A stretch of DNA of 64,000 nucleotides from Aestuariispira insulae (GTDB taxonomy: Bacteria; Pseudomonadota; Alphaproteobacteria; UBA8366; Aestuariispiraceae): assembly GCF_003385955.1 (NCBI RefSeq), contig NZ_QRDW01000009.1, positions 1 to 64,000 on the forward strand. Reading direction: 5' to 3'. The number at the start of each line of letters is the position of its first letter. The stretch's first letter is position 1. This document shows, one piece after another, positions 50,402-54,667 of this stretch. The notes under the pieces were generated by a model. It worked only from the letters and a program-made list of their open reading frames with translations. It was not told the DNA's origin and ran no database searches. A program made the translations under genes and the position numbers.

Positions 50402-51655
50402 CTATAGCCTGGAAAACAGATCGGTCAGCCAGTCTGCCGCGACCGCGTAGCGCACATCCTTGTCCGGACAATGGCCCTGCTCATACAAAATAACCGTATG
50501 GCTGTTGCGGGCGGCCTGGACCAATGGTTTCAGATCACTCAACGGCGCAACCGGGTCCGCATGGGTGGTCACAACCAGCAGGGGCGTCTCCGCCGACTGA
50601 CCATATATCCCCTGTTGTGCCAGGGAAAAAGATCTGAACCGCTCACTGAATTGCTCCCAGGCCACTTCTTTGGAAAATCCCAACCGATCCTTAACCGCAT
50701 CCAGGGTCATTTCCGGTAGTTTCGCGTAATCGTCCTCTTCCATCAGGAAAGCGCTGTCCAGGGGTCCGCAAATTGAAACGCTGCCAGCCAGTGACAATTC
50801 TTTGCGGAATAGAATTCTTGCCGCCGGATGGCCGCCAAAACTCGCCCCCATAACGGCGATACGATCGCCATCCACGGACGGGTGACGGCGCATCGCCCTG
50901 ACCGCCGCCACATGGAGAATGTCGCTGCTGGCCGTCAACGGGAAGGCACCGCTTTCACCAATGCCTGGCATATCAATGGATAGCATGGCAATGCCGCGCG
51001 GTGCCAGATGGCGGCTGAAAACACCCAAGGCCTGTTCCTTGACAACATCCGATCCCATGGATTGCACGACCAGCGGATGCGGCCCCGGCCCCTTCGGCAG
51101 ATGCAGATAGGCATTGAAAGCATGCTGTCCATGGCGGATCCGAACCGTTTGCAGCGGCACCTCAAGCAAGCGCCCTCCGGCCTGATAAGACAGCCTGGCC
51201 TTGTTGAGCGCCCTCATCGCCAACGCATCATTTTTCAAATGCGGATAGGAAGCGGTCGTGTAATAGCTTGACGCTTCGAAAAAGAGCTTCCGCGCACGTG
51301 CCGTTTCGCCCGTCTGTTCTGCCTTCCTTGCAAAATCCAGGACCTGATCACCGGCCGTTTCCCATTCAAAGACCCAATGACCGGGACCATAATCCTTCAC
51401 ACTGTCCAACAGGTTCGGATCGCGCCGGGCATTTTTGGAACTGGCAATCCTGGCCAGCACCCGTTCTATCACTTCCGGGTCCGCGCCCTGCCAGGCCCAG
51501 CTGTCCCGTGAAATATTGTGATACCAGTTTTCGTTTTCTTCTTCTTCCGTTTCAAAATGGTGCCTGTCGCCCTCAATGACCATACAGGCGGTAATCACCA
51601 ACATGCATAGAAACGCCGCCCCGGTTCGGAGCGCTGTTGTCTTTGAATTCAGCAT
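50402..51655 (-). CDS. FrsA-like alpha/beta hydrolase lipoprotein
   Basis: 417 residues. Lipobox ITAC places Cys24 at the mature end, so it is membrane-anchored outside the cytoplasm. FrsA/YafA-like hydrolase: IAVMGASFGGHPAARIL (nucleophile Ser), DMPGIGESGAF, acidic partner in TTHADPVAPL and His in YEQGHCPDKD. Known FrsA is cytoplasmic, so the lipoprotein form is unusual. Probably in one operon with mipA (12-base gap), giving an envelope esterase plus outer-membrane protein. Confidence 0.85.
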   Translation of the reverse strand: MLNSKTTALRTGAAFLCMLVITACMVIEGDRHHFETEEEENENWYHNISRDSWAWQGADPEVIERVLARIASSKNARRDPNLLDSVKDYGPGHWVFEWETAGDQVLDFARKAEQTGETARARKLFFEASSYYTTASYPHLKNDALAMRALNKARLSYQAGGRLLEVPLQTVRIRHGQHAFNAYLHLPKGPGPHPLVVQSMGSDVVKEQALGVFSRHLAPRGIAMLSIDMPGIGESGAFPLTASSDILHVAAVRAMRRHPSVDGDRIAVMGASFGGHPAARILFRKELSLAGSVSICGPLDSAFLMEEDDYAKLPEMTLDAVKDRLGFSKEVAWEQFSERFRSFSLAQQGIYGQSAETPLLVVTTHADPVAPLSDLKPLVQAARNSHTVILYEQGHCPDKDVRYAVAADWLTDLFSRL

Positions 51656-51667
51656 CTTGTTCTCCCG

Positions 51668-52483
51668 TCACCACTTGTAAACCAGGCCGAAAATCGCACT
51701 CATCTGATTGGCGGATCCCTGATCTTTGACCAGCGGGCTGTCGGCAGCCTCACTCATCAACCGGCTATAATCCACCCGGGCCAGAGCCAGAACGTTATCA
51801 GTCACCGGATACCCCACACCCAGCGTGAGCCCGACATCACGCAAACCCGCCGCCGGATCATATTGGGCCAGCCCCAGGGTGGAGCTCGCCGCCTGGCTGG
51901 CGGTGATGCCGAAGGAATTGTCCATGTAGTCTTCGTTGACCCAGGTCAGATGTGGTGCGATGGTCAATCGGGCCTGGCCGTTGAATACCGGCATGGCATA
52001 TTCCGCTTCCAGGGTCGCAGCCGTGCCTTTGCGATCTCCACCCAGGTCATGCGCAAGTTCCAGGCCAATCTCCATCGGCCCCATTTCATAGCTGACAGCC
52101 CCCACGGCGACCGCCCCGACATCCATGTTACCAAGACCGCCCAAGGCATCATTGTCGCTTGCCTCGCGCCCACCTTCATAGCGGATGCCGAGATCCACCC
52201 GGAAATCCTCCGTGCCATAGGCCTTTGCATACAGCCCCGGACCGCCATAGGTCGTCAGTGTGATCCGGTCATTCCAGGAGATTTCCAACAAAGGCACCGG
52301 GGCGATTTCGTAATCATCGGATCCTTCATAGTCCGGTGCATACATAGCCGCCAATCCGGTTTCAAAGGACCATTCCTCTGTGCCTTGATCCTCCGCAATG
52401 GCCGAATGAGGAACGAAAGCTGCCGCTGCAGCAGTGGCCATCCCGGCAATGATCAACGGTGAGAACAGATTGGTTTTCTTCAT
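51668..52483 (-). CDS. MipA/OmpV-family outer-membrane protein
   Basis: 271 residues. Signal peptide ends near HSAIA-ED. MYAPDYEGSDDYEIAPVPLL is the family signature, followed by amphipathic beta strands and a terminal aromatic (FGLVYKW), as expected for an outer-membrane barrel. MipA/OmpV proteins scaffold murein enzymes or affect polymyxin and osmotic responses. ATG 52483 chosen; a TTG at 52492 is in frame. Divergent from a two-component system across a striking inverted repeat. Confidence 0.9.
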   Translation of the reverse strand: MKKTNLFSPLIIAGMATAAAAAFVPHSAIAEDQGTEEWSFETGLAAMYAPDYEGSDDYEIAPVPLLEISWNDRITLTTYGGPGLYAKAYGTEDFRVDLGIRYEGGREASDNDALGGLGNMDVGAVAVGAVSYEMGPMEIGLELAHDLGGDRKGTAATLEAEYAMPVFNGQARLTIAPHLTWVNEDYMDNSFGITASQAASSTLGLAQYDPAAGLRDVGLTLGVGYPVTDNVLALARVDYSRLMSEAADSPLVKDQGSANQMSAIFGLVYKW

Positions 52484-52545
52484 TGTCTTCAAACCTTATT
52501 GTGTTTTGAAATTCACGTTTGTCGGAGACGGTTTTAAGCGGCCTG

Positions 52546-52596
52546 CCTGAATAAAACCTGAACCGGTTGAAGGGCTCGATTCAGGTTTTATTCAGG
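52546..52596. promoter_or_regulatory. 17-bp inverted repeat of tandem TTCAGG half-sites
   Basis: Perfect 17-bp arms CCTGAATAAAACCTGAA (52546-52562) and TTCAGGTTTTATTCAGG (52580-52596). Each arm is itself a direct repeat of TTCAGG separated by five bases, i.e. an 11-bp period as in OmpR/PhoB/QseB operators. It lies between the divergent mipA and response-regulator genes (46 bases from the latter) and probably binds that regulator on both sides. Confidence 0.75.
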
Positions 52597-52641
52597 TTCG
52601 TTCCCTCTGAATGATGCCAGGAAATAAGTGAAGCGGATGTT

Positions 52642-53301
52642 ATGCGAATATTACTAGTTGAAGATGACCCCCTGATTGGCGACGCCATCCGGGGCAGTTT
52701 TTCCCGAGCCGGAGATACCGTTGACTGGATCACCGACGGGGCCGATGCTTCGGAACTGCCGGAAATCGATGGTTTTGACATGATGATCCTGGATCTGGGA
52801 CTGCCCGGAAAAGACGGTATGGATATTCTTCAAGAAATCCGGGGCCGTGGCCATTTTCTGCCCATCCTGATCCTGACCGCCCGCTATGAGATGGATAACC
52901 GCGTGCGCGGCCTGGATCTCGGGGCCGACGATTATCTGGTCAAACCTTTTGCCATGGAAGAATTGATGGCGCGCTGCAGGGCCCTGGCCCGGCGCCGCGA
53001 AACCAAACAAAGTCACCGGTTGACCTATCGCGACCTGGTCATCGATCCGGCGGCGCTCACCGTATCCAAGAGCGACCGTGACATCCCGCTGACGCCCAAG
53101 GTTTTCGGTCTGCTGCGGCTTTTGCTGGAAAACCAGGGGCGGGTTCTCACCCGGCGCACTTTGGAAGATCATCTTTACGGCTGGGACGGCGAAGCGGAGA
53201 GCAACACGCTTGAGGTTTTTATCTCCCAGATCCGACGCAAGCTTGGTGCTGATCTGATCCAAACCATCCGGGGTGTCGGCTATGTTCTTCCCAAGGAATG
53301 A
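52642..53301 (+). CDS. OmpR-family response regulator (QseB/TctD-like)
   Basis: 219 residues. Receiver (LLVEDDPLIGDAIRGSFSRA; phospho-Asp in MMILDLGLPGKDG; KPF at 106-108) and C-terminal winged helix (LTPKVFGLLRLLLENQGRVL ... IRRKLGADLIQTIRGVGYVL). ATG 52642. Overlaps the kinase gene by ~20 bases. Predicted to act at the TTCAGG repeats upstream, regulating itself and mipA-frsA. Confidence 0.95.
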   Translation: MRILLVEDDPLIGDAIRGSFSRAGDTVDWITDGADASELPEIDGFDMMILDLGLPGKDGMDILQEIRGRGHFLPILILTARYEMDNRVRGLDLGADDYLVKPFAMEELMARCRALARRRETKQSHRLTYRDLVIDPAALTVSKSDRDIPLTPKVFGLLRLLLENQGRVLTRRTLEDHLYGWDGEAESNTLEVFISQIRRKLGADLIQTIRGVGYVLPKE

Positions 53302-54667
53302 AGCCACCAACGCTGGTGATCCCCCACCGTCCATAAAAGCGCATCTCTTTAAAAAGCTTGCCTGGTCGATGGCTGCCATCTGGCTTATCACCGCCATGCT
53401 TATCCTCATATTCGCACCGGTTGAATATCAGGAATCTTTGGACCGGCGCGCGGTCAGGACCGCCCAGATGGTTCTGGCTTTTGCCTCCGTCATGCCGGAC
53501 CGTGTGGTCCAGCAGCCGACTCTGGATGACGTTCTGTCCGATAAATTGGAACTGGAAGAATTTCTGATCGTGATCAGACGTGACGGCCATCCAATCTATT
53601 CTTCCCTGGCCGGGGGATTGCGTCTGGACATAACCCTGCCCTTGGACGGCACTGCCCGAATCGGTTCGGAAACGTATGACCTATTTGGCTTAGAGGACCG
53701 GGCCACCCGGACAGAAGTCATCGTCGGTGTCAGCAAGGCAGAAGCATTTTTTGCTTCTGTGGAAATCGCCGGCCTCGCAATCGGGCTATTGACCATCGCC
53801 ATGTTTTTTGTCCTGAGCGCCGTTCGAATGGGGATTCGATCCGGCCTTGAACCGCTGGATTCCTTTGCAAAAAATGTCGAACAGCGGGATGGCCGCGACC
53901 TGACCCCGCTCGGGACGGAAGCCACCCCCATTGAGATGAAACCCATCGCGATGGCACTGAACGGTTTCATGGGCCGCCTCAAGCAGGTTATGGACCAGGA
54001 GCGTGAGTTTATTTCCAACGCAGCCCATGAATTGCGAACGCCGTTGACCGCGATCCGTGCCCAGGTCGAACAGATTGATCCTGATCCGGAACACCCGACC
54101 GAAAGCCAGGCCATCGGCAATGTCATGATCGCCATTGATCGTGCAGACAGGCTGGTCCATCAACTTTTGGACCTTTCCCGCTCGCAAAGCGCCAATCTCG
54201 GCCATATGCCGGAGACCCGGTTCGACCTTGCGGTTCATCTGCAGGAATTGATGGCTGATTTGGTGCCGATTGCGGAAAAGCGCCAAGTCGAGCTTTCCCT
54301 GGATGCACCGGACAATCTGTTCACGCGCTGCCAACAGGATCTTTTGCGGGTGATACTCCGGAATCTGCTGGAAAACGCCATCAAATATTCCTCCGAACAA
54401 GGCCTGGTCGCTGTCAGTGTGAGACAGGCTGACAATGGCAGGCTGAAAATTGACGTTCACGACAATGGGCCAGGATTAACCCCGGAGGAGTTTGAACGGG
54501 CCGGCGACCGGTTTCAACGGCTGGGCCGCACCGACCGTCAGGGGGCCGGTCTGGGTCTGGCCATCGTCTTTGAACTTTGCGAGAAATTAGGTTTCACTTT
54601 GACCCGCATTTCAAAACCCACTTTAGGCGGACTATCCCTTGAACTGGACATACCCGGTCCTCATTGA
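53282..54667 (+). CDS. Sensor histidine kinase (QseC/TctE-like)
   Basis: 461 residues. Two membrane helices (residues ~25-45 and ~165-185) bracket a periplasmic 2CSK_N-type sensor domain. A short linker (EPLDSFAKNVEQRDGRDLTP) leads to the H-box FISNAAHELRTPLTAIRAQV and ATPase motifs NLLENAIKYSS, DNGPGLTPEE and GAGLGLAIV. The start is likely ATG 53282; GTG 53273 is possible. Partner of the response regulator upstream. Confidence 0.93.
   Translation: MFFPRNEATNAGDPPPSIKAHLFKKLAWSMAAIWLITAMLILIFAPVEYQESLDRRAVRTAQMVLAFASVMPDRVVQQPTLDDVLSDKLELEEFLIVIRRDGHPIYSSLAGGLRLDITLPLDGTARIGSETYDLFGLEDRATRTEVIVGVSKAEAFFASVEIAGLAIGLLTIAMFFVLSAVRMGIRSGLEPLDSFAKNVEQRDGRDLTPLGTEATPIEMKPIAMALNGFMGRLKQVMDQEREFISNAAHELRTPLTAIRAQVEQIDPDPEHPTESQAIGNVMIAIDRADRLVHQLLDLSRSQSANLGHMPETRFDLAVHLQELMADLVPIAEKRQVELSLDAPDNLFTRCQQDLLRVILRNLLENAIKYSSEQGLVAVSVRQADNGRLKIDVHDNGPGLTPEEFERAGDRFQRLGRTDRQGAGLGLAIVFELCEKLGFTLTRISKPTLGGLSLELDIPGPH

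Follow-up and report, generated by a model that had tools for sequence, protein, structure and literature searches.

Genes and repeats at the locus

The locus examined here lies in a window of 64,000 nucleotides, the whole stretch of DNA that was analysed, from the alphaproteobacterium Aestuariispira insulae (contig NZ_QRDW01000009.1 of assembly GCF_003385955.1). A pair of oppositely oriented repeats separates a gene for an outer-membrane protein from the divergent genes of a two-component system, and the region is organized as follows.

50402 to 51655, minus strand: FrsA-like alpha/beta hydrolase gene (Pfam PF06500), 12 bp downstream of mipA
51668 to 52492, minus strand: mipA, for an outer-membrane protein of the MltA-interacting protein family (Pfam PF06629)
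52546 to 52562, minus strand: mipA-facing tandem box TTCAGG-TTTTA-TTCAGG, assigned from its sequence and from a box of the same orientation before mipA in 12 of 12 loci
52563 to 52579, no strand: inter-arm gap of 17 nt, whose length is not conserved among relatives
52580 to 52596, plus strand: response regulator-facing tandem box of the same sequence, assigned likewise and from its presence in 12 of 12 response regulator orthologues of at least 60% identity
52642 to 53301, plus strand: PmrA/QseB-like response regulator with a receiver domain and a winged-helix DNA-binding domain (domain and family profiles)
53273 to 54667, plus strand: QseC/PmrB-like sensor histidine kinase, overlapping the stop codon of the response regulator and of uncertain start codon (open reading frame and profiles)

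On the plus strand, positions 52546-52562 read CCTGAATAAAACCTGAA and positions 52580-52596 read TTCAGGTTTTATTCAGG. These arms form a perfect 17-bp inverted repeat that extends to 20 nt at 95%, and each arm is itself a direct repeat, TTCAGG-N5-TTCAGG, with an 11-bp period. The window contains the exact tandem motif twice, whereas 100 dinucleotide shuffles average 0.03 copies; it also holds one perfect 17-bp inverted repeat whose gap is at most 60, and none of the 100 shuffles has any. Both counts bear out the initial annotation, which had described the repeat in these terms. No other exact copy of TTCAGG-N5-TTCAGG exists among the 4,823,716 bases of the genome.

The response regulator belongs to the OmpR/PhoB family, as its Response_reg (89.7 bits) and Trans_reg_C (78.8 bits) domains both score above cut-off. 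Its nearest NCBIfam families are QseB and then PmrA, but it falls below the cut-offs of both equivalogs (228.9 bits against 345 for NF007663, and 210.6 bits against 330 for NF007928). Its relatives of solved structure include PmrA/BasR. The FrsA-like hydrolase carries a lipobox-like signal, VITAC, that was read by eye, and a hydrolase-type lipoprotein adjoining MipA recalls MipB of Pseudomonas.

Conservation of the tandem boxes

Orthologous loci were collected by a scan of genome contigs and by searches of 59 genomes comprising the window genome and its relatives, 82 genomes from the family of an Azospirillum locus, 17 from the family of the L044 genome, and 43 from the order of the window genome. 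The resulting set of response regulator orthologues with at least 60% identity holds 12 loci (the window, L039-L045, L139, L144, L145, and L148), whereas L010 (the same as L045), L138, L140-L143, and L147 were left out as repeats of loci already counted. A single family, the one to which the Azospirillum loci belong, supplies most of these orthologues, and the counts given below are therefore not independent. The system is also sparse: only eight of the 82 genomes of that family encode an orthologue at 69% identity or above.

A box facing the response regulator gene is found in all 12 loci, matching 9-12 of 12 consensus bases, and a mipA-facing box is present in the same 12 genomes, the divergent gene of L039 being cut by the contig end. 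Spacing within the boxes is equally consistent: among same-strand pairs of TCAG in the 12 upstream regions, 22 lie 11 bp apart, and no other spacing is represented by more than three. The arms stand back to back in 10 loci (the window, L039-L045, L139, and L148). The initial annotation had proposed a search for the repeat upstream of orthologous mipA and response regulator pairs, and this search thus returned 10 back-to-back loci, with divergent mipA confirmed at nine; the contig of the tenth, L039, stops 227 bp upstream.

Among 70 control response regulator loci, a plus-strand box matching at least 10 bases is found in six and a minus-strand box in 12. Two have both orientations at 9, none has both at 10 or more, and none has a 12-of-12 box. 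For two more distant relatives of the regulator, L046 (55% identity, its 7.6-kb locus lacking mipA) and L146 (48% identity), a search of 300 bp showed no such box. When 385 genomes of the class were scanned for the double-headed pattern, three matched (the window genome, G216, and G311) and controls gave none, while a stricter Azospirillum-type pattern matched none of the 385.

Two peculiar records were encountered along the way. Locus L136 (Arenibaculum), at the start of a contig, contains a second copy of the mipA-facing box followed by a broken-looking response regulator start, which could represent either a duplication in decay or an overlap in the assembly. The L044 record is labelled Mycobacterium sp. 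KBS0706 but carries a locus of alphaproteobacterial type (response regulator 71% identical), and its name looks wrong.

One box for each gene

The most instructive loci are those in which mipA and the response regulator gene have come to lie apart. Genomes G445 and G446 encode the regulator (69-70% identity) without a divergent mipA, and only the box facing the regulator gene is present upstream of it. In both genomes a gene identified as MipA by Pfam lies on the same strand a few kilobases away (664-1578 with the regulator from 4821 in L178; 9594-10418 with the regulator at 6231-6893 in L177), with its own tandem box ahead of it (TTCAGGTCCCATTCAGC and TTCAGGTCCGATTCAGC). Because each of the separated genes keeps its own facing box, one arm belongs to each gene. 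A hairpin or a single palindromic site is thereby excluded as the conserved element, and the arm spacers of relatives agree at only 0-4 of 5 positions, such that the exact palindrome is local to the window. Judged by this comparison of sequences, the arms are two single-promoter boxes, in keeping with the two opposed tandem operators, one per side, that had been proposed initially.

Promoter geometry

Each box precedes a -10-like hexamer at +10 to +15 from the box end, the distance (9 nt after the box) being the same on both sides.

52531 to 52536, minus strand: putative -10 hexamer of mipA, TAAAAC, with A at the second position in 12 of 12 loci
52606 to 52611, plus strand: putative -10 position of the response regulator promoter, TCTGAA, a poor match in the window, with A second in 10 of 12 loci

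The mipA-side hexamer is CAGGGT or CAAGGT in most loci, and that on the response regulator side is GATCTT, GATGCT, TATCCC, GACCTT, or similar. The A at +11 is missing on the latter side from the window and L045. Mean A frequencies for comparison are 0.24 (mipA side) and 0.18 (response regulator side), and no probability is given for this enrichment because the loci are related.

A consensus scan of positions 52400-52700 revealed no sigma-70 promoter, which suggests that an activator is needed. As described in the available text on architecture I of Salmonella PhoP, the PhoP box lies 11-12 nt from the -10 element and over the -35 region, and PhoP also activates phoP itself (PMC3335776). The present boxes appear to be similarly arranged in that a directly oriented box sits about one turn upstream of the putative -10 position and probably over the -35 region, although they differ from that description in the distance (9 nt rather than 11-12 nt), the motif, and the placement of two boxes back to back (PMC3335776). 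By this analogy in spacing, activation of both promoters appears more likely than repression.

Predicted regulation and competing explanations

These observations can be accommodated by a simple scheme, which we regard as quite probable, wherein the two arms serve as independent activator boxes of the OmpR/PhoB type through which the PmrA/QseB-like regulator activates mipA, perhaps with the FrsA-like gene, as well as its own operon with the kinase. A phosphorylated dimer of the product of 52642-53301 would bind each arm head to tail, with one monomer for each TTCAGG. With each box about 9 nt upstream of the -10 position, where the -35 contact would be made, the bound regulator could recruit RNA polymerase in both directions, to mipA together with the FrsA-like lipoprotein gene and to the regulator-kinase operon. 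The outcome would be a positive loop in which an outer-membrane partner protein and the kinase of its own system are coupled. By analogy with the Pseudomonas ParRS system discussed below, the signal may be envelope stress or cationic antimicrobials.

Control of mipA, the FrsA-like gene, and the regulator gene by the regulator itself had been anticipated in the initial annotation. The conserved boxes support this proposal for mipA and the regulator gene. The case for the FrsA-like gene is weaker, since among the loci compared it adjoins mipA only in the window, so that its inclusion depends solely on the 12-bp gap. Overall, the evidence supports a reading of the predicted element as autoregulated control of a divergent envelope gene by an OmpR/PhoB-family regulator, which is a known kind of control and a fairly ordinary one. 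In E. coli, for example, cpxP encodes an envelope accessory protein and is transcribed divergently from cpxRA, the autoregulated two-component system to which it belongs; the likeness lies in the divergent layout, and the regulator, the motif, and the accessory protein differ.

The same boxes could instead allow the regulator to repress one or both promoters, including its own. The sign of regulation is not readable from sequence, and polymerase can equally be blocked by a box that covers the -35 region. However, the fixed 9-nt distance to the -10 position on both sides resembles that of activating PhoP boxes in the portion of the literature available (PMC3335776), and the absence of a consensus promoter suggests that an activator is needed, making repression unlikely.

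Another arrangement to be considered is a single four-site operator at which two regulator dimers co-operate across the gap. The arm-start offset is 33-35 in seven of the 10 double-arm loci, and the offset of the PepSY-linked systems described below is constant at 23, shorter by one helical turn. This regularity does not extend to three Azospirillum loci, whose offsets are 70, 83, and 85, or to the two genomes in which the boxes are fully separated, and co-operation of this kind is quite improbable.

Returning to two independent boxes, it must be asked which protein would bind them. Tandem sites with a period of about 11 bp, as bound by OmpR/PhoB-family regulators, are present and conserved, and binding by the adjacent regulator is predicted. 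According to the accessible descriptions, PmrA boxes consist of hexamer repeats with a 5-bp gap that are bound head to tail (PMC3973317, PMC10927774), and the arms share with the PmrA/BasR box the hexamer direct repeat, the 5-bp gap, and the 11-bp period (PMC3973317, PMC4660055, PMC10927774). The regulator is moreover of the same OmpR/PhoB-family branch as PmrA. In contrast, the core is TTCAG here rather than the TTAAG reported for PmrA, the regulator scores below the PmrA cut-off, and its recognition helix carries F193, S195, and Q196 in place of H193, H195, and N196. A recognition code pairing F193 with TTCAG and H193 with TTAAG was considered and is not supported, as 13 of 23 H193 loci, many of them from Streptomyces, also have a TTCA tandem; among loci below 55% identity, this tandem occurs at 11 of 16 with F193 compared to 24 of 85 others.

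A different regulator with tandem sites, such as CenR, could also be proposed, given that the reverse strand of the arm, CCTGAA-N5-CCTGAA, contains the TGA-N8-TGA reported for CenR (PMC9275681). The match involves six bases only, and the exact box occurs just 0-3 times per orthologue genome and tracks the regulator and mipA, whereas CenR is described as having dozens of promoters (PMC9275681); its involvement is very doubtful. UzcR of Caulobacter was dismissed as the binder because the motif given for it in the text available, CATTAC-N6-TTAA, does not match (PMC8963506).

Finally, the notion that the repeat acts as an RNA hairpin (a bidirectional terminator or attenuator) draws on the strong predicted RNA fold of the repeat in the window (-31.1 kcal/mol, z -6.2) and on the 13-15 of 17 positions still paired in relatives, but that pairing arises because both arms share half-sites, the gap ranges from 16 to 68 nt, the arm spacers diverge as noted above, transcription is inferred to start downstream of the arms, and both boxes persist in G445 and G446 where they are kilobases apart in the same orientation and can form no hairpin, and this notion is therefore rejected as exceedingly improbable.

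Relation to ParRS and MipBA of Pseudomonas

Useful hints regarding the role of this module come from Pseudomonas aeruginosa, where mipBA is activated by ParR and is itself required for ParRS to induce mexXY-oprA, and where MipA binds polymyxin, according to the available text of a 2024 paper that also finds most of the mipA loci it screened adjoining a two-component system (PMC10936184). In the window and in relatives, mipA likewise adjoins an OmpR-type two-component system. A second parallel is offered by RND pumps, since MexXY-OprA belongs to the ParR regulon (PMC10936184) and genes for a membrane-fusion protein and an AcrB-type RND protein come after mipA in five of the 10 mipA-bearing relatives (L040, L043, L175, L179, and L180), with no RND match after mipA in the other five (L042, L045, L174, L177, and L178). 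At L180, where the genes were checked by Pfam, mipA and the membrane-fusion and RND genes apparently form one operon (L180:6164-11497). The corresponding runs at L175, L179, L040, and L043 also appear to be single operons.

The differences are equally clear. The window has the FrsA-like lipoprotein gene (PF06500) after mipA instead of an RND pump, and it holds no MipB, which in Pseudomonas has a beta-lactamase fold and is encoded ahead of mipA, as far as the available text describes it (PMC10936184). Self-activation is predicted here, whereas parRS of P. aeruginosa is described in that text as not induced by polymyxin (PMC10936184). The module may work like ParRS-MipBA in outline, and with no MipB it is not the same system.

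A bolder proposal, which we offer tentatively and which could well prove wrong, is that alphaproteobacterial MipA serves as an outer-membrane co-sensor of a PmrA/QseB-like system, that the two are under mutual positive control through the paired TTCAGG boxes and joined to RND pumps in several lineages, and that this wiring was reached separately from ParRS-MipBA-MexXY of Pseudomonas. If so, MipA would act generally as a sensor of envelope stress and not as a scaffold for murein synthesis. The analysis predicts mipA/two-component wiring in another class, which makes the idea of MipA as a sensor testable outside Pseudomonas. For the family of mipA-adjacent two-component systems it also yields a DNA motif, a predicted regulon of small size, and a means of direct testing. 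Literature searches at the level of titles and abstracts, mostly without subscription journals, showed neither a TTCAGG box of a response regulator nor a MipA with a divergent two-component system.

Other boxes in the genome and a second set of systems

The relaxed pattern TTCAG-N6-TTCAG occurs 21 times in the window genome, two of these being the arms, and a rough gene-finder placed 18 of the other 19 sites, with 11 inside open frames and seven between them. One intergenic site precedes a gene for a PEMT/ICMT-like membrane methyltransferase (L164, G000:C2:435218-435838). A homologue with 46-48% identity (L045:6106-6798) adjoins this two-component system in Hwanghaeella, and the short stretch upstream of it contains a near-match to the box at 9 of 10 core bases, an association that counts in favour of the proposed scheme. 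Azospirillum-group genomes yielded no comparably strong homologue. The box at an OEP/TolC gene (L166) is probably due to chance, as none of its other matches (14 in 11 of 12 genomes, its own gene included) has a facing box with at least 9 of 10 core bases.

In a second set of systems, with QseB-like regulators, six loci (L012, L015, L016, L018, L120, and L132) carry outward-facing TTCAG tandem boxes at a constant offset of 23 bp, and the link of this set to PepSY genes was checked by Pfam at L132 and at the G216 locus (L181). Back-to-back boxes are therefore a recurring layout in this branch of response regulators.
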